Origin: a virus
Virus record (IMG/VR): IMGVR_UViG_3300025133_000042
Span: 1 to 64,000 of that record
Strand: one strand, 5' to 3'
Length of the DNA: 64,000 nt
The position numbers were made by a program, and so were the translations under genes. Below, in pieces: positions 29,706-49,265 of this stretch. How positions within the stretch are numbered: position 1 is the first letter of the stretch; every line of letters begins with the position of its first letter. The notes beneath the pieces were generated by a model, which was not told the origin of the DNA, ran no database searches, and worked only from the letters and a program-made list of their open reading frames with translations.

Positions 29706-29880
29706 TAAAGTGCCCCTTCAAAATTTCTTCCATGGCGTCATGGATTCGATTTTCAAGCTCAATGGCGCGGGGTTTGTCCAAGTCTAAATCGAATGGAATA
29801 TCTACTCGACACTCAACAATATTTGGCCCGATTGCAATATGATATTGCGCGCCTGGAGTTTGGCATTTACGTTCCTTCAC
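29692..29880 (-). CDS. Small hypothetical protein inside the array
   Basis: 62 residues from GTG 29880: MKERKCQTPGAQYHIAIGPN, then a helix (AIELENRIHDAMEEIL). No KxGDLV core, but the overlaps with neighbours are the same. Confidence 0.5.
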   Translation of the reverse strand: MKERKCQTPGAQYHIAIGPNIVECRVDIPFDLDLDKPRAIELENRIHDAMEEILKGHFSESR

Positions 29881-30055
29881 TTACAACCTCGATGTATTCC
29901 TCCGACATAGGGCCTCCCATGTCAAAGCTAGCTTTGCATACGGGAGCAAGATTCCAATAGGCCGGGCCACCGATGTGGCCGCGTTCGGCCTCTGTGGTAA
30001 TAATATAGTAACCAATCTTTGCTGGTAAAACTTGAACTAAATCACCAACTTTCAT
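29867..30055 (-). CDS. KxGDLV-family protein
   Basis: 62 residues: MKVGDLVQVLPAKIGYYIIT, a Gly-rich loop, and YIEVVSEGT. ATGA overlap with the gene before it. Confidence 0.65.
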   Translation of the reverse strand: MKVGDLVQVLPAKIGYYIITTEAERGHIGGPAYWNLAPVCKASFDMGGPMSEEYIEVVSEGT

Positions 30056-30264
30056 GCTCTGCTCATAATATGAAACATATCGTCCTCAGTGCAGTAATCT
30101 TGCGATTTCCAAGGATCCGTTAAAATCTTACCTGAGTTCCAAGCGACTTCAACCATCAGCTCGTCGTCATTGTAATGACTTATATAAGTAGAAAGCACTA
30201 TTCCTATGTCGCCATCTGAGCAAGCAAGCACGTCTCCTACTTTTGGAGCATTTTCGCTTTTCAT
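30052..30264 (-). CDS. KxGDLV-family protein
   Basis: 70 residues; the core APKVGDVLACSDGDIGIVLS starts at residue 6, then LMVEVAWNSG. ATGA overlaps with both neighbours. Confidence 0.6.
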   Translation of the reverse strand: MKSENAPKVGDVLACSDGDIGIVLSTYISHYNDDELMVEVAWNSGKILTDPWKSQDYCTEDDMFHIMSRA

Positions 30265-30500
30265 TCTTGACCAAGCCTACTTGCGCTTATAATTTCCAAC
30301 TCGTGCGGCAGGTAGAGGCGCGCGAGTCTTTTGTGAGCCCACTGCACGCAAACAAGGGCTACATCACGGCTAGGTAGCATTACTGCGGTAACAATGCCGC
30401 CCCAATGGCAGCCAGCGCGATGTGCCACCAAATCACCAATTTCAGGGTGCCTTGCTGACTGTCTTAATTTCTGAGTAGCGGACACTTCTCTCGCTCCCAT
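30261..30500 (-). CDS. KxGDLV-family protein, start uncertain
   Basis: The core PEIGDLVAHRAGCHWGGIVT is clear, with ALVCVQWAHKRLARL after it. The ATG at 30500 (79 residues) has no good ribosome-binding site and would overlap the upstream gene by 59 bases; a nearer non-ATG start is possible. Confidence 0.5.
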   Translation of the reverse strand: MGAREVSATQKLRQSARHPEIGDLVAHRAGCHWGGIVTAVMLPSRDVALVCVQWAHKRLARLYLPHELEIISASRLGQE

Positions 30501-30618
30501 CTGATAAGCTGAGTAGCCTGTATTCTTGTTCGCCGGATCCGCGTCTCGGAAGGGCCTTGAGAACAATATAGTAACGAGTTGTCTCGTATAAAACAGAAAC
30601 TAAATCGCCTACCTTCAT
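30442..30618 (-). CDS. KxGDLV-family protein
   Basis: 58 residues from ATG 30618: MKVGDLVSVLYETTRYYIVL, EYRLLSLSDGS, with a basic last strand. Four bases after the upstream stop. Confidence 0.6.
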   Translation of the reverse strand: MKVGDLVSVLYETTRYYIVLKALPRRGSGEQEYRLLSLSDGSERSVRYSEIKTVSKAP

Positions 30619-30622
30619 GCGG

Positions 30623-30808
30623 CTAGGGAGCATACTCCTCGTCTGCCATGGGTGTGATAGTGACAACATTCTCCCACGTCATTGAGCCTTCGGGCCACAG
30701 AACCTTAAAGTCGACTGCGACGAGTGAGTCTGTGTGTGCTTCGCTTACGCGGGTGATGACTCCCATTGAGCCAGTATCAATGCACTTTACCAAATCGCCT
30801 GTAATCAT
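30623..30808 (-). CDS. KxGDLV-family protein, first of the array
   Basis: 61 residues: MITGDLVKCIDTGSMGVITR, VDFKVLWPEG, with an acidic end. GAGGAGG precedes the ATG and a promoter lies 30 bases upstream, so this gene opens the array. Confidence 0.65.
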   Translation of the reverse strand: MITGDLVKCIDTGSMGVITRVSEAHTDSLVAVDFKVLWPEGSMTWENVVTITPMADEEYAP

Positions 30809-32663: not shown

Positions 32664-32702
32664 GAAATGTGAACTGGCGAGGCCCAGCCTACGCCCCCAG
32701 AG

Positions 32703-32774
32703 CCCGCATGACAGGATTCGAACCTGCAACCTCTAGCCTAAAGCTAGCGCTCGATCCTAGTGAGCTACACGCGA
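32703..32774 (-). tRNA. tRNA-like gene, possible UUA anticodon or degenerate
   Basis: Acceptor TCGCGTG/CATGCGG, a 4-bp D stem, T arm GCAGG-TTCGAAT-CCTGT and a D loop with GG are all present, but CCA is not encoded. The anticodon arm is abnormal: either a 5-bp stem closes a five-base loop TTTAG, or opening one pair gives a seven-base loop CTTTAGG with anticodon UUA, which would read the UAA stop codon. It is a broken tRNA or a suppressor-like tRNA; sequence alone cannot decide. Confidence 0.5.
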
Positions 32775-33706: not shown

Positions 33707-34270
33707 TCAAAAAATCTCCTCCGCATAAGAGACTTTTCTTGCATCTAACTTAATTTGCGGATATTTCTCTTGTAAGCGCCTAACGCAATCAACATTGGCG
33801 CGAGAATCATCTAAAAACAATATGTCTTTGTGACCTCTAAGAATCTTTTTCTCGATCCAGTCTGCTTTGGCTTGACTATCAGAATCATCCAAAGTAACCA
33901 ACTCTATCGTATTTGTCATATCGAAGCCTAAATCTTCTAAATATGTGATGATAGCCATTCGTGCGGCGTTCTGACGAGCGGTCAAAATAACAACTTTCTC
34001 GTCTGTACCAGCGTCACATGATTCTCTAAGCAAGCTGGTCACCTGTGTAATCTCGCGAGGGTTGACGACGTTTTCAAAATCTGAAAAATCGTACTCATTG
34101 CGCGAGTTTTTATTGTGAAGCTTAAAATCTGAAGTTGAAATATTTTCCTCGCGGCCATTTGGATAAGTTACGTTTACCACGCAATCTGTCTTGACCAGAG
34201 TGTCATCAAAATCAAATACGCACAGCTTTTCTTTTAGCTGGCGAGCTTTATAATTATACCATTTTCTCAT
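33707..34270 (-). CDS. HAD-superfamily phosphatase
   Basis: 187 residues. Motif I FDFDDTLVKT near residues 19-28, motif II VVILTAR and motif IV LFLDDS are all present. This matches HAD phosphatases such as the 3'-phosphatase part of polynucleotide kinase or phage 5'-nucleotidases; no kinase domain is present. It could trim DNA/RNA ends or nucleotides. The ATG is six bases from the promoter -10 (leaderless). Confidence 0.75.
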   Translation of the reverse strand: MRKWYNYKARQLKEKLCVFDFDDTLVKTDCVVNVTYPNGREENISTSDFKLHNKNSRNEYDFSDFENVVNPREITQVTSLLRESCDAGTDEKVVILTARQNAARMAIITYLEDLGFDMTNTIELVTLDDSDSQAKADWIEKKILRGHKDILFLDDSRANVDCVRRLQEKYPQIKLDARKVSYAEEIF

Positions 34271-34276
34271 ACTATG

Positions 34277-34305
34277 AGTATAAGAACTATTTTGTTGTGA
34301 GTAAA
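34277..34305 (-). promoter_or_regulatory. Early-type promoter, leaderless layout
   Basis: -35 TTTACT (34300-34305), 17-base spacer, -10 TATACT (34277-34282), six bases before the ATG at 34270. It overlaps the 3' end of the methyltransferase gene. Confidence 0.5.
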
Positions 34306-35144
34306 ACTTCTTTTGCGGGCTTTGCTACAAAGCCGTTCTCCGTCTTCTTTCTGCGGCCGGCTGTGTAGGTTACATCAAAGTATTTGATCTTGTCGGCGTC
34401 CCATCGATCTTCAAAAAAATTATCGCCTGAATCGCGGTTGGATAGCCAGCCTGTTGCTCCTACTTCGCCACAATGTTGTAGGCAACCGATGACTCTCTCT
34501 TGCTCGGAATCATTAAAATCAGTGTTATACTGAGTAAAAGAATCGCGATAAGGAGGATCCATAAATACAAAGCTATTTTGACTTGCGTACTCTCTCACAA
34601 CGGGCTCAAAATCATTGCAAAAAATAACGGTGTTCTGAAGTGCATCATGCCACCACTTTACAATCTCTCTGTCATACACCTTGTCTTTCTGCTTCCCCAA
34701 GCCAAACGGAGTTCCAAATCGATTATTGGTGTTCTTGTTGATCTGCCAAATGCCATTAAAGGCCGTCTTCATCATAAAATAAAGAGTGGCTGCTTCCTCG
34801 GTTTTGGACCACTTTTCATAGTCATAAGCGTGCTCGTGACGAAGGGCATAAAACCAGATCTTTCTGTCAGCATGACTGAGAGGAAGATATTGCTTCTCTA
34901 GTTCGTCGAGCCTAAGCTGAAAGGACACAAGATTATGCTTTATTTCTCGATAAACAGAGACAATGCTAGGATTGCTATCGTTGATAATGAACTGTGCCTT
35001 TGGGTTCTTTTTATATGCCCAAATGAACATTGCTCCGCCTCCGAAGAAAGGCTCAATATACTTATCAAAATTCTCCGGCAAACAAGGCATATACTTTTTG
35101 AGCATTTTGTTTTTGCCGCCGGCCCAAATGAATAATGGCTTCAT
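34287..35144 (-). CDS. D12-class DNA adenine methyltransferase
   Basis: 285 residues. FIWAGGKNKML at the start, YIEPFFGGGAMF (SAM-binding motif I) near residue 29, and MDPPYRDSF (DPPY catalytic motif) near residue 195 identify an N6-adenine methyltransferase of the Dam/DpnII-M class. Its ATG overlaps the stop of the gene before it (ATGA), which encodes an EcoRI/MunI-like nuclease, so it is most likely the protecting half of a type II restriction-modification system. Target site not readable from sequence. Confidence 0.85.
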   Translation of the reverse strand: MKPLFIWAGGKNKMLKKYMPCLPENFDKYIEPFFGGGAMFIWAYKKNPKAQFIINDSNPSIVSVYREIKHNLVSFQLRLDELEKQYLPLSHADRKIWFYALRHEHAYDYEKWSKTEEAATLYFMMKTAFNGIWQINKNTNNRFGTPFGLGKQKDKVYDREIVKWWHDALQNTVIFCNDFEPVVREYASQNSFVFMDPPYRDSFTQYNTDFNDSEQERVIGCLQHCGEVGATGWLSNRDSGDNFFEDRWDADKIKYFDVTYTAGRRKKTENGFVAKPAKEVLLTTK

Positions 35145-35677
35145 ACAATCTCCATGATCTGTTTAGCCACCTTATCAATATTGGAGTTTTCTCTATCAAG
35201 AATAGCGTAGTTCTCCCCAGCTAAAAATAAAGAAAATTCATCTTGGTAGTGCTGAGGATTGACCAAATACGGCTTCTTGTCCTTTCGTGCAACGTAGAAG
35301 GGCTCACCCGAAAACGTTTTACCCGCAAAGACCAAAAAGAAAGGTTGCGTTGGCGTATCGTATAGCAACTTTATTTTTTGCTTAAGTCCTGGTGATAAAT
35401 ACCTATACGCGCGCTCATGAGCATTGCCGCCTTTATTGCCTGTTTTGTTCTCAACAAAAAGATGTTTTCGCGTCTTTAAATTAAAAATACAGCAATCGGG
35501 TTTGATGCCCCTGCCGTCGTCATATATTTCAATTTTTTTAAATTTTGTCCTAACTTCATAAAAATCAGGCAAATGTGTTGCTATTTTAACAGCAAAAGTT
35601 TGTTCGCCTGCGGTACCTATCACCTTCGCGTGCGCGACCCAGCTAGAATTCCTTGCAGATAATGCTGCACTTCCCAT
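35141..35677 (-). CDS. EcoRI/MunI-like type II restriction endonuclease
   Basis: 178 residues from ATG 35677, with AGGAG five bases upstream; an earlier in-frame start at 35701 would lie on the promoter. The PD-(D/E)xK core is KPDCCIFNLK ... FVENK with Asp61, Glu76 and Lys78; the 15-residue Asp-Glu spacing equals that of MunI (Asp83/Glu98/Lys100 as I recall them). GGNAHERAYRY (83-93) matches the EcoRI recognition segment G-N-A-x-E-R (residues 140-145), which contacts the AATT core. It should therefore cut an AATT-centred palindrome (inference). The methyltransferase is coupled directly downstream. Confidence 0.75.
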   Translation of the reverse strand: MGSAALSARNSSWVAHAKVIGTAGEQTFAVKIATHLPDFYEVRTKFKKIEIYDDGRGIKPDCCIFNLKTRKHLFVENKTGNKGGNAHERAYRYLSPGLKQKIKLLYDTPTQPFFLVFAGKTFSGEPFYVARKDKKPYLVNPQHYQDEFSLFLAGENYAILDRENSNIDKVAKQIMEIV

Positions 35678-35696
35678 AATAATCTCCTGTCTAGAC

Positions 35697-35724
35697 AACA
35701 TAGGAATGGTCGCGTGTCAGTCAA
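35697..35724 (-). promoter_or_regulatory. Promoter of the restriction-modification pair
   Basis: -35 TTGACT (35719-35724), 16-base spacer, -10 TATGTT (35697-35702), 19 bases before the nuclease ATG. The -35 overlaps the end of the gene at 35717. Confidence 0.55.
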
Positions 35725-36349
35725 GAACTATTTTGGAAAGAGCTTTAGCAGCCATGCGCTCTAATCGGCTCAATGATTTCAGGGTCTCAAGGCCTTCGGA
35801 GAATGTGAATGGCCGGCCTTGGACGCGCGTCATAAACTCTGATTCTTCGCCCATCTTGAGATTCCCAACTTCGATTTTCTGGTCTAGACCAGGAAATTCA
35901 CTATTGTTTGTGCCATACAAATAGGCGCCTTGACCACCCATGGGAATTATCAAAACTGAATCTTGACAGAACTTTTTGCCTAACATTATTATATTATTAA
36001 TAAAGTTTGAATCTTCCTCAAGGTTGACTACGATTAGGCTCTGCTCACCGACCTCGACGGCATCAGGGGTCTCAAAGTCCTCGATATAACTGCCCTTCGC
36101 CTTTGTTACTCCATACTTTAAAGACAGCAACGCAGCCTTTAAATTGCGATTTCTAAGCATGTTTGACCCCGAGATGCCCCCATGGTCGTCGGAAGCTGTC
36201 GGATCCGGGGAAGAGCACTTAGAGAGGTCAGCTGGGTCATCCCTGAAGGCAGTTATAACTGCAACATCAGTCTTCCCGATAAAATGGTAGACCCTCGAAA
36301 GAGAAGACTCATTGAGAAAGGACTTCCACTTTTCAGGCCCCGAACTCAT
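35717..36349 (-). CDS. Hypothetical protein with N-terminal KWKSFLNE peptide
   Basis: 210 residues. The start MSSGPEKWKSFLNESS carries a Trp/Leu/Glu peptide like those at the ends of other proteins here. The body (NRNLKAALLSLKYG, EQSLIVVNLEED, SVLIIPMGGQGAYLYG) is alpha/beta and vaguely like DUF3293 proteins. ATGA overlap with the upstream gene. Possibly a head-packaged protein. Confidence 0.55.
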   Translation of the reverse strand: MSSGPEKWKSFLNESSLSRVYHFIGKTDVAVITAFRDDPADLSKCSSPDPTASDDHGGISGSNMLRNRNLKAALLSLKYGVTKAKGSYIEDFETPDAVEVGEQSLIVVNLEEDSNFINNIIMLGKKFCQDSVLIIPMGGQGAYLYGTNNSEFPGLDQKIEVGNLKMGEESEFMTRVQGRPFTFSEGLETLKSLSRLERMAAKALSKIVLD

Positions 36350-37149: not shown

Positions 37150-37539
37150 TCACCCCTCGTAATGTTTCGCCTTTACATGTTCAGCAATGGGAATCGCCTC
37201 GCCATCGCCGTCGACTCTAACGAATTTAATGTTAGTCTGACAAACGACTCTCTCTGTCCCGTTATAGACGCTATATCTTCTAGCCTGTATACTGACAGTA
37301 CATGATGTTCTCCCAAAATTTACCAATTCGCCATAAATTTTAATAACTTGGCCGGGACGAACGGGCTTCAAAAATTCAACCTTGTCCATGGAAACCGTAA
37401 CCATCCTGGGCGTATCGGACAACTCGCTGGCAAAAGCCACGGCGGCCTCGTCGAGCCAAGCTAACATCAGGCCGCCGAATAAATTTCCGTGGTACCCACA
37501 GTCGCCCTCTTTGCACATATGTGTTGATATTAGTTTCAT
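37150..37539 (-). CDS. Hotdog-fold acyl-CoA thioesterase (YciA-like)
   Basis: 129 residues from ATG 37539. NLFGGLMLAWLDEAAVAFA is the hotdog thioesterase signature with the catalytic-region Asp, followed by VSMDKVEFLKPV and the GELV and FVRVD strands. It should hydrolyse acyl-CoA thioesters in the cytoplasm. A metabolic gene of this kind is unusual on a phage and might alter host lipid or CoA pools. It precedes two tRNA genes. Confidence 0.8.
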   Translation of the reverse strand: MKLISTHMCKEGDCGYHGNLFGGLMLAWLDEAAVAFASELSDTPRMVTVSMDKVEFLKPVRPGQVIKIYGELVNFGRTSCTVSIQARRYSVYNGTERVVCQTNIKFVRVDGDGEAIPIAEHVKAKHYEG

Positions 37540-37560
37540 AGTATTCACTCAAATATATAG

Positions 37561-39042: not shown

Positions 39043-39186
39043 CTAACAGTTGAATTCTTCTTTAAGAAGAAGAAGAACCTCTTCCAGTTCTTCAAATATT
39101 TCTTCCTCGTCGTACCCTTGATCTAAAAGGGCAACGATCTCTGGCTTGAGTATGCTCTGCAGCTCTTCTTGCAAACTAAGTGACAT
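39043..39186 (-). CDS. Small acidic helical protein (47 residues)
   Basis: ATG 39186 overlaps the stop of the gene before it by 11 bases. MSLSLQEELQSILKPEIVAL then a Glu/Leu-rich helix. It ends directly at the tRNA-Asn gene. Function unknown. Confidence 0.45.
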   Translation of the reverse strand: MSLSLQEELQSILKPEIVALLDQGYDEEEIFEELEEVLLLLKEEFNC

Positions 39187-42560: not shown

Positions 42561-44126
42561 TTATTCCTCTATCACTGCAGCTGCAGTAGTTATCAGAGTC
42601 GAAGAAACGCTAACAGCGTTAGCCAAAGCATTTCTTGTCACCTTCACAGGATCAATGATTCCAGCATCATACATGTTAACTAGGTCGTTTCTAGCGAAAT
42701 CCCACCCAACGTCTAAGTCTGTAGAATCAAGCTTGTTGAGGATGACCTCGTAGCTAAGATTTGCATTATTTGACATCTGCTTAAGAGGCGCGATGAGGCC
42801 ATTTCTGACGATTAAAGCGCCCGTCAGGCGGTCACCGGACAGATCGTCTGTGGCAAAGTGCCGGCAGCGCAAGAGCGCGACGCCTCCGCCGGGGACGACG
42901 CCTTCTTCCTGCGCGGCTGTGACGGCTTCGAGAGCGTCCTCAATCCTATGTTTTTTCTCTACCATTTCAACATCTGTTGAAGCGCCGACTTTAATAACAG
43001 CGACTCCAGAAGCTAATCTGGTGATTCTTTGTTGCGTCCTTTCACACTCAACAATATCGTCAATCTGTCTAACCAGCTCTTTGAGCATTTCAATTCTTTC
43101 TTGAATCACGTCGTTGTTGCCCAAGCCGCCGACAAAAGTAGTTTTGTTCTTTAGAATTTCAACGCTCTTACATGTTCCCAGGTCAGACATTTGCACATCT
43201 GCCAAGAGTTTGTCTTTCTTCGCGGAGACAAAAGTAGCGCCAATAGACAGTGCCAAGTCTTCCAAGGCTTCAGTTCTCTGCTCTCCGTAGCCGGGAGCTT
43301 TTACTGCAGCGACACGCATGGAGCCACGGACGGTATTCATGATAAGCGCTGCGAGAGCCTGGCCCTCAATTTGCTCGGCAACAACAACGAAGGGCCGGCC
43401 GTCGCGGGCGGCTAATTCCAGCACTGGGAGGATTTGAGCCACTTGGTCTATCTTATGATCTGTGACCAGGACCAAGCACTCGTCGTACTCAACGGCCGCT
43501 CGTCGTTGGTTTGTAATAAAAGAAGTAGAAAAGTATCCAGAATCAAACTGAAATCCCTCGATAACATCAAGGGAGGTGTCAAGCGATTTGGCTTCTTCAA
43601 CTGCGATGGCTCCGTTGTTACCAACCATCTCTACAGCCTCGGCAATGAGCCGGCCAATAGTTTCGTCGCCATTTGCTGAAATAGTCGCGACGCTCTCAAT
43701 CTCCTCCAGAGACTCAACATGCCGGGCCATTCCTTTGAGTTCTTCGAGGACGCGGCGTAGAGCCATATCCATGCCGCGCTTAAGTTCGACAGTACTCGCG
43801 CCCGCAAGAATATATTTCTGTGCTTCGTTGAGAAGCTCGCGGGCCAGGACGGTCGAAGTAGTAGTGCCGTCTCCAGCATTGGTGTTTGTCTGTGACGAAG
43901 CCTGCTTTAAAATCTGTGCTCCAGTATTTTCAATCGGGTCATCCAAATCGACAAACCTAGAGACTGTCACACCATCTTTGGTAATAATGGGCATGCCATC
44001 TTTTTGTTTTAAAATGACGTTGTTCCCGCGAGGACCCAGCGTGCACGCAACCAAATCAGCCAGCTTATTCGCGCCGGCTAATACTCTAGAATTAAGCTCC
44101 TGGCCGGAGCTACATATCTTTGACAT
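42561..44126 (-). CDS. groEL: GroEL chaperonin
   Basis: 521 residues, group I chaperonin. TLGPRGNNVILKQKDGMPII near residue 30, the ATPase signature GDGTTTSTVLA and the APGYGEQR segment are intact, so it should form a ring and bind ATP. It lacks the Gly-Gly-Met C-terminal repeat of E. coli GroEL (548 residues). The likely co-chaperonin is the GroES-like product at 55853-56125. A phage copy suggests folding of a phage protein the host ring does not handle, as with T4 gp31/gp23. Own promoter. Confidence 0.95.
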   Translation of the reverse strand: MSKICSSGQELNSRVLAGANKLADLVACTLGPRGNNVILKQKDGMPIITKDGVTVSRFVDLDDPIENTGAQILKQASSQTNTNAGDGTTTSTVLARELLNEAQKYILAGASTVELKRGMDMALRRVLEELKGMARHVESLEEIESVATISANGDETIGRLIAEAVEMVGNNGAIAVEEAKSLDTSLDVIEGFQFDSGYFSTSFITNQRRAAVEYDECLVLVTDHKIDQVAQILPVLELAARDGRPFVVVAEQIEGQALAALIMNTVRGSMRVAAVKAPGYGEQRTEALEDLALSIGATFVSAKKDKLLADVQMSDLGTCKSVEILKNKTTFVGGLGNNDVIQERIEMLKELVRQIDDIVECERTQQRITRLASGVAVIKVGASTDVEMVEKKHRIEDALEAVTAAQEEGVVPGGGVALLRCRHFATDDLSGDRLTGALIVRNGLIAPLKQMSNNANLSYEVILNKLDSTDLDVGWDFARNDLVNMYDAGIIDPVKVTRNALANAVSVSSTLITTAAAVIEE

Positions 44127-47564: not shown

Positions 47565-47914
47565 AATTCGGGGTGCTCCATTTCAATTATATCAAAAATA
47601 TCATCTAGCTCGTCCTTGTCCAAGCCAAAATTAAGTGAGGCTTCTGTTGACGCGGCGTGCATCTTCTTTATATATTCTCTCTTGGGCTTGCCCTGTATCA
47701 CGTGCAGCTCTTTGAAATTCTCTATAAAAGACAAGATATTTGAATCACTTTCTAGATATCCTGTAATCATCATTCTAAAGAACTGAGATTGGCTTAAGTT
47801 GTCGTACTGACATCTTATTCGCAGCTGCGCTTGGCGGTCTTCCGAATCATAAAACATGAACTTCTTTCTGGTTTTTGGATCGGGCCTTGTGGGATCTTTC
47901 AACCGTTCCTCCAA
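47561..47914 (-). CDS. Conserved phage protein, possibly ribbon-helix-helix
   Basis: 117 residues. KFMFYDSEDRQAQLRIRCQY then LSQSQFFRMMITGYLES gives a strand followed by two helices, like phage ribbon-helix-helix proteins. It lies between the regulator above and IMP dehydrogenase. DNA binding is inferred. Confidence 0.5.
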   Translation of the reverse strand: MEERLKDPTRPDPKTRKKFMFYDSEDRQAQLRIRCQYDNLSQSQFFRMMITGYLESDSNILSFIENFKELHVIQGKPKREYIKKMHAASTEASLNFGLDKDELDDIFDIIEMEHPEL

Positions 47915-48921
47915 AGAATGTGCGTGTTACTTTCTAATTGTGCTGCGCTTGACTGTAAGATGAAATGTCTCTTACTTTGAAGTTCTTTAATGCTTCGCAC
48001 GCCTGTATAAGACAAGCCGCTACGAATGCCACCATCGATATCTTTAAGGATATCATCAACGGACCCCTTATAAGGCACCATAGTTGCGACGCCTTCTGGA
48101 GTGGAGCTTTTCCCCCTCCAATCTCGTTGGGCCTCCTTCGACGCCATGCCTCTGTATTCCTTGTACTTTTCGCCCTTCGCACCCACTAGGACCTCGCCGG
48201 GTGTTTCGTCCGTGCCTGAAAGCATTGAGCCGATCATTATAAAATCAGCGCCTGCTGCTAGGGCCTTCACCATGTCACCTGTTGTTTTAATGCCGCCATC
48301 AGCAATGATTTTGGTATCATAACTAGTCTTCGAGCACTCCAAAACACTTTGAAACGTGGGTACCCCGTGGCCGGTCACGATTCTCGTAGAACAAATAGAG
48401 CCGCCGCCGATGCCGACGCGGATTGAGTCCGCGCCCCACTCTGACAGAGTCTCGAAGGCCTCAAGTGTCGCGACATTCCCAGCCATAACATGGACAGCCT
48501 CCCCAAACAAATCTTTAAGTTTCTTAAGACAGCCTTCCATCATCTTGTGGTGGCCGTGGGCAACATCGACACAAAGAATACTTGCGCCGGCAGAATAAAG
48601 AGCAACAGCGCGGTCCTGATAGTCTCCTGACATTCCGATGGCTGCAGCAATCTTTTCTTGACGCGATACATCTTTGATATACGACACCATCTCCACTTGC
48701 TCAGGAATGGTGTTGTATCTGTGTATTATCGCTAGGCCGCTGTTCTTATCCATCGCCAGGGCCATCATCGTTCCTGAGACAGTGTCCATGGGCGAAGCAA
48801 TCACCGGAAGTCTAAAATTGTGTTTACCCAACTGGGAGCTGGTATTCACCTCGCGCCTGGACTTAATATCACTCAGCTGCGGGACCAGCAGTATATCATC
48901 AAACGAATATGTTTGTTTCAC
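47899..48921 (-). CDS. IMP dehydrogenase, catalytic domain only
   Basis: 340 residues from GTG 48921, which overlaps the upstream stop and has GGAG eight bases before it. [10 protein letters not shown] and SPMDTVS open the barrel; [18 protein letters not shown] holds the catalytic Cys loop in IMPDH form (R-I-V-T-G), not the GMP-reductase form. The barrel is continuous where bacterial IMPDH has CBS domains (about 490 residues in total), so nucleotide feedback through CBS is lost. It converts IMP to XMP for guanine-nucleotide supply. Confidence 0.8.
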
Positions 48922-49265
48922 TTTAAAGTCTCCAAATATCTCTGCAAGTACCAAATCGCCTTTTCTATATCTTTTTTCGGCTCGCCCTTCATGTTGTGCC
49001 GTGCGACGTATTTAATCACGTTGCCGCAATGAAAGCCTAGGCCCCAATCTTCAATAATATCAATAACTTCGTGCTGGCCTTGGTTGTAGTGTTTTGGGTG
49101 GTCAACTTTCGAAGCGGGCGCAGGGGCCGGATCTCTAAACTGCAAGTCCTTATAGGGGTCCTGGTTATATACAATGTCAGGCTCGCTAGGCATGGAGCCT
49201 TGATGGGGCCAAGGACTTTTGACCTTCTTAACTAGCTCTCTCCACTCTTCTTTGCTTATCTTCAT
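48918..49265 (-). CDS. DUF3310 protein
   Basis: 115 residues; the C-terminal part KVDHPKHYNQGQHEVIDIIE ... GNVIKYVARHN ... DIEKAIWYLQRYLE is the DUF3310 pattern common in phages, sometimes annotated as a nucleotide-kinase-like protein without proof. It lies between dUTPase and IMPDH, which fits nucleotide metabolism. Confidence 0.75.
   Translation of the reverse strand: MKISKEEWRELVKKVKSPWPHQGSMPSEPDIVYNQDPYKDLQFRDPAPAPASKVDHPKHYNQGQHEVIDIIEDWGLGFHCGNVIKYVARHNMKGEPKKDIEKAIWYLQRYLETLK

Follow-up and report, generated by a model that had tools for sequence, protein, structure and literature searches.

The stretch of DNA analyzed here (64,000 nucleotides; called the window) belongs to the IMG/VR virus record IMGVR_UViG_3300025133_000042, which is 104,857 bp long and comes from an environmental tailed phage. 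The phage origin originally proposed from the DNA was borne out, because the record has genes for a tail sheath, a tail tube, a portal protein, and a large terminase, which confirm a contractile-tailed phage.

Two genes on the minus strand make up the locus. The first encodes a 178-residue predicted type II restriction endonuclease of the MunI/EcoRI family (35141 to 35677), and the second encodes a 285-residue D12-class (Dam-family) N6-adenine DNA methyltransferase with a DPPY motif at residue 196 (34287 to 35144). The nuclease stop codon and the methyltransferase start codon overlap in ATGA (35141 to 35144), and GGAG precedes this overlap within the nuclease gene. Together, these features predict translational coupling of the nuclease and methyltransferase. 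The nuclease gene has a leader (35678 to 35701, minus strand) with the putative ribosome-binding site GACAGGAG. An alternative in-frame ATG upstream (35699 to 35701) would give a 186-residue nuclease. We prefer the 178-residue start because GACAGGAG lies immediately upstream of it and because the alignment of the family with MunI starts at that methionine.

The original prediction had placed a restriction-modification pair at 34287 to 35724. The 34287 limit held, but the upper limit was slightly too high because the nuclease gene starts at 35677 or 35701. The ATGA overlap with a D12-class adenine methyltransferase was as predicted, with the ORF coordinates and the Pfam and NCBIfam matches in agreement. 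In the window, the pair is near tRNA genes rather than in the replication region, where it typically sits in its relatives (see below). When we inspected the neighboring ORFs by eye, there was no candidate for a controller (a small helix-turn-helix C gene), and the relatives' loci that were compared have no conserved third gene of the controller kind.

Family and fold of the nuclease

The nuclease scored 27.6 bits against Pfam PF11407 (RestrictionMunI; cut-off, 25), and PADLOC type II models concurred. The window nuclease alone gave a weak match to MunI in the PDB (E = 0.0013). A profile made from 27 phage nucleases matched MunI (1d02) with an E value of 5.4e-9, and this match included the N-terminal MGxxxLSxRxNW. 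The other members of the 27-sequence alignment are 43 to 57% identical to the window nuclease. Even so, D61, E76, and K78 (numbered for the 178-residue product) and GGNAHER (residues 83 to 89), all of which had been picked out originally, are invariant in it. Conservation of these residues across such divergence is far beyond chance and argues that the nucleases are selected for activity. The catalytic Asp is preceded by Pro in the window nuclease and by Leu in most relatives.

An AlphaFold model made from 5 sequences was poor (pLDDT, 70) and was superseded by an AlphaFold2 model made from the 27-sequence alignment (mean pLDDT, 85). The newer model matched MunI 1d02 with a Z score of 14.0 (rmsd, 2.4 over 135 residues), and the next entry had a Z score of 9.6. 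Foldseek returned seven significant matches to the model (ranks 1 to 7). All were MunI or EcoRI chains, with EcoRI (1eri) as the second family (E = 4.4e-5). Therefore, the structure-based search that had been proposed as a check agrees with Pfam and the profile in supporting an EcoRI/MunI-like nuclease. In the model, D61 comes before a strand, E76 and K78 are within the next strand, and GNAHER opens a helix. Judged from alignment and model, the nuclease is of the MunI/EcoRI-type PD-(D/E)xK fold, with MunI closest and EcoRI next, and it probably functions as a homodimer. Two other identities were rejected. A phosphoribosyltransferase match covered only a partial stretch, fell below the NCBIfam cut-off, and was missing from the structure matches, and no individual stretch of a Tachylectin-2 match passed.

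MunI, which recognizes CAATTG, is the best match by both sequence and structure over nearly the whole length. As predicted, its spacing of 15 residues between Asp and Glu is the same in the phage nuclease, and the two also share MGxxxLSxRxNW and GNAHER. (In 1d02, the Asp is replaced by Ala, as would be expected of an active-site mutant.) The HMMER alignment places another MunI E-x-K over the ExK of the phage nuclease. With the numbering that we assume for the MunI catalytic residues, we place about ten extra MunI residues between ExK and GNAHER, because of the Asp spacing of 15 and because a gut homologue has 'NKKTGKTLFGEIK' where the phage family has 'NTKTGKCLFIENK'. The phage nuclease is thus shorter than MunI in this region, and it also differs in having Gly for Arg115, in being virus borne, and in having a Dam-family methyltransferase as its partner. 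EcoRI, which recognizes GAATTC, shares PD...ExK and GNAxER with the phage nuclease. However, it is larger (261 residues in the compared chain), has extra arms, and is only about 13% identical.

The methyltransferase and the predicted target

The methyltransferase matched PF02086 (1.7e-37) and TIGR00571 (163 bits; cut-off, 114.85), and its nearest solved structure is DpnM (2dpm; E = 2e-26). DPPY is present in all 36 of the aligned methyltransferases that reach that position. The phage enzyme has its fold family and DPPY in common with the GATC methyltransferases DpnM and T4 Dam, a group with some phage-borne members, but it differs from them in being partnered with a MunI-like nuclease.

The residues that read the target were compared by using EcoDam numbering, which we presumed by transfer through DpnM, T4 Dam, and the EcoDam sequence as we take it to be. 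EcoDam reads GATC with Lys9 at the first base pair, Arg124 at the fourth, and Leu122 and Pro134 at the third (PMC10073500). The window methyltransferase has Q134 and I6 at the positions of the Arg and Lys in DpnM. Gln replaces the reader of the fourth base pair in every family member that covers the position, whereas DpnM and T4 Dam retain Arg. The reader of the first base pair, Lys in DpnM, gives way to Ile or Met (to Val in a single solitary relative). The phage enzymes retain the Leu-like and Pro positions. These residues suggest that the methyltransferase belongs to the Dam family but that its target is probably not GATC. Solitary methyltransferases of the cyanophage type carry the same Gln, so it is not an adaptation to the nuclease alone. 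We considered whether the gene that precedes the solitary methyltransferase in S-RIM2 might be a nuclease and rejected this, because its product is DUF6551-like (below the cut-off) with nothing nuclease-like recognizable.

In EcoRI, Arg145 and the main chain of Asn141 and Ala142 contact A:T pairs (PMC4081073). The position of MunI Arg115 is Gly83 in the window nuclease. Both outer G:C readers are lost and the inner A:T readers kept, and the nuclease keeps the AATT-reading motif without the Arg115 of MunI, for which we assume a role in target recognition. Because of this, the target of both enzymes would more probably be AATT than GAATTC or CAATTG. The original prediction of kinship with EcoRI and MunI was therefore upheld, but the GAATTC or CAATTG target that it implied is the less probable one. 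The sites that it listed are positioned correctly (GAATTC at 39052 and 61575 and CAATTG at 2297), and the whole window has 21 GAATTC, 16 CAATTG, and 379 AATT sites. We rejected palindrome counts as an indicator of the target. The observed-to-expected ratio of AATT was 0.94 in the window's genome, 0.59 to 0.93 in five relatives, and 0.23 to 0.98 in comparison phages, so that AATT was not singled out and the ranges of relatives and comparison phages overlap. The bacterial enzyme MluCI, whose specificity we take to be AATT, would have the same target as the phage pair. Mosaicism has been raised as a possibility for MluCI together with EcoRI and MunI (PMC4081073). AATT is a concrete specificity prediction for both phage enzymes.

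A virus-borne family of gene pairs

The nuclease family surfaced through genes neighboring the methyltransferase relatives, whereas searching viral contigs with the window nuclease by itself yielded no relatives. The alignment led to 40 other IMG/VR viral contigs with the nuclease, the longest being 191 kb. A repeat scan with other patterns returned the identical 40, which include near-identical contigs and amount to about 27 to 30 distinct ones. A standard review describes type II nucleases as rare on bacteriophages (PMC4081073). This agrees with the rarity that had been noted originally, but with at least 41 viral contigs carrying it, the pair is not an isolated oddity.

The methyltransferase gene is directly behind the nuclease gene in all 40 contigs as well as in the window, so that pairing is obligatory wherever the nuclease was found. 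The junction is a 4-base overlap in 28 of the 40, a 1-base overlap in 11, and abutting in 1. The nuclease-first order that had been remarked on is thus kept in 40 of 40 relatives, and no controller gene is evident near the pair. Distances among nucleases and among methyltransferases are correlated (Mantel r = 0.77; p = 1e-4).

Among 31 loci compared, a gene for a single-stranded-DNA-binding protein was just upstream of the pair in 23 and a RecA/UvsX-like gene was downstream in 15. These flanks define a typical location of the pair within the replication region, often between the single-stranded-DNA-binding-protein and uvsX genes of T4-type phages. A portal family was shared by four of the nine long records tested. 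With recombination genes nearby in relatives, a PD-(D/E)xK enzyme might have another job, such as repair, recombination, or nicking, and overlap the methyltransferase gene incidentally. We consider this extremely unlikely, because both the sequence and the structure match MunI best, with a clear margin, the base-reading GNAHER motif is kept, and the pairing holds in all 40 contigs. A genuine MunI/EcoRI-family restriction-modification pair is what we propose with high confidence.

Two pattern sets were scanned against 84,980 bacterial and archaeal genomes and found no nuclease relatives; the scans were seeded by short peptide patterns, which more distant bacterial homologues may have escaped. 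Catalogued phages had one weak relative, in a gut phage, which we rejected as a family member because it is closer to MunI, whose extra residues and Arg it has. With no cellular copies and this weak relative alone in catalogued phages, the nuclease-methyltransferase pairs look like a virus-borne lineage, found only in viruses in the collections searched. Our searches of the open-access literature turned up no earlier description of this family. Its enzymes add members to families already known, and what is new is a virus-borne, nuclease-first, and apparently virus-restricted lineage of complete systems.

One contig (L004) matches another (L005) on both flanks and differs by lacking only the nuclease gene, with the methyltransferase kept. 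An assembly error is possible, but this suggests that some phages can do without the nuclease. Methyltransferase-only relatives also occur in cyanophages. Such relatives would be expected if the methyltransferase were the useful enzyme, as a shield against a host restriction enzyme with matching specificity, and if the nuclease were a passenger or addictive gene of a captured bacterial system. However, a passenger would decay, whereas none of the 27 diverged nucleases has a change at a catalytic or recognition residue. Furthermore, the nuclease and methyltransferase codiverge, and no bacterial donor lineage was found in the 84,980 cellular genomes. Therefore, a passenger nuclease is unlikely.

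Several other features of the relatives were observed. Among them are the regions upstream of the pair in L014 (2810 to 3529) and L005 (3353 to 4162). Some relatives have a second D12 methyltransferase upstream of the pair, and in L014, an extra 240-residue protein is encoded between this methyltransferase and the nuclease. It has a homologue in cyanophage S-RIM50 and no family match, and it is possibly the product of another restriction gene. Two large relatives have extreme depletion of a palindrome, GGCC in G001 (191 kb; 0.03 of expectation) and AGCT in G002 (185 kb; 0.10 of expectation), which is perhaps avoidance of host restriction. By eye, we also saw an FtsZ/tubulin-like ORF adjoining the terminase and portal genes of L006 (4425 to 5558).

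Proposed role and neighboring genes

Pairs of a cutter and a protector are normally a bacterial defense against phages. A cell that is to retain its restriction system needs the methyltransferase to act before the nuclease, which is why there are controller genes and why the nuclease is expressed late. A nuclease-first pair without a controller would be safe in a phage because the phage DNA arrives methylated and host survival is unnecessary. We propose that replicating phage DNA is marked by the methyltransferase, which is predicted to modify the second A of AATT, and that the nuclease, with its MunI/EcoRI fold, cleaves the same sequence if unmarked. Virion DNA would come premarked, making it safe to translate the nuclease first with no need for a controller. 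The unmarked host chromosome would be attacked, causing shut-off and supplying nucleotides, and unmarked DNA of a competing phage would be attacked too.

Chlorovirus pairs such as CviAII are similar in that a lytic virus has an adjacent nuclease and methyltransferase with a short target (predicted for the phage pair). Chlorovirus nucleases adjoin their methyltransferases and typically recognize 2 to 4 bp, those packaged in virions are considered to break down host DNA within minutes, and some chlorovirus methyltransferases occur without their nuclease (PMC7019647). Chloroviruses, which differ in infecting eukaryotic algae and in packaging their nucleases in virions, are the closest precedent in function.

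The same enzymes might instead serve mainly to exclude coinfecting or later phages with unmarked DNA, with host DNA being cut incidentally or protected. The presence and absence of the nuclease between near relatives (L004 and L005) are expected of a phage-phage weapon. Also, T4-type phages usually have other nucleases that degrade host DNA, and the KVP40 annotation lists dexA, 46, and 47 among them. Even so, the host chromosome, if the phage methyltransferase leaves it unprotected, presents far more sites, and virus exclusion by chlorovirus nucleases was tested with a negative result, the nucleases not being responsible (PMC7019647). Because of this chlorovirus precedent, we favor destruction of host DNA and put exclusion of rivals second, as a possible but less probable main benefit.

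No integrase was detected in the 104,857-bp record, which may be incomplete, and its absence fits a lytic phage. Type II systems on plasmids can work by postsegregational killing, and forced maintenance was one of the roles originally suggested for the pair. A selfish maintenance module of this kind is the least likely of those roles and very unlikely overall, because this is a large contractile-tailed phage with no integrase found, and a lytic cycle offers no segregating lineage to hold.

Taken as a whole, our best explanation, toward which we lean modestly, is a complete type II restriction-modification system that belongs to the phage, would be directed at AATT, and would chiefly destroy host DNA. 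There is about an even chance that the pairs are an autonomous virus-specific lineage, long resident in the T4-type replication region, that combines self-methylation with an AATT cutter against host and rival DNA as the phage counterpart of the chlorovirus systems. With the family conserved on 41 or more viral contigs but not found in the cellular genomes scanned, restriction would be a regular phage tool and not only an antiphage defense. If this is true, restriction has been converted from a host defense into a phage weapon. The pair also offers small enzymes and a clean test of how a phage discriminates its own DNA from that of its host.

Directly upstream of the nuclease gene is a SAM lyase family gene (35717 to 36349, minus strand; 210 residues; PF23780, 34.9 bits; cut-off, 28), which probably shares a transcript with the pair. 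We rejected it as a component of the system because it is absent beside the other pairs. A homologue in G001 (48% identical) is at 1.5 to 2.1 kb, near the record end, and the G001 pair is near 12 kb. Enzymes of this type remove the methyl donor or, as anti-CRISPR agents, may break down SAM-AMP (PMC12255297). This methyl donor is the one that the neighboring methyltransferase needs. On the other side, 16 bases after the methyltransferase gene, is a candidate additional member of the system, a gene for a HAD phosphatase (33707 to 34270, minus strand) that resembles the phosphatase domain of polynucleotide kinase (phrog_415, 6.1e-9; weak Pfam HAD matches were below the cut-off). It could process DNA ends.

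A tRNA gene at 32702 to 32774 (minus strand) was called with the anticodon TTA, which would read the stop codon TAA, and yet TAA ends 21 of the 41 large ORFs of the window. The gene encodes either a suppressor tRNA or is degenerate. By eye from the sequence, we also recognized genes for a GroEL-like chaperonin (42561 to 44126), an IMP-dehydrogenase-like protein (47899 to 48954), and a thioesterase-like protein (37150 to 37548). Finally, many tiny ORFs that start with M(K/Q)VGDLV occur in the window (29867 to 30669) and in two relatives, L003 (7667 to 8663) and L006.
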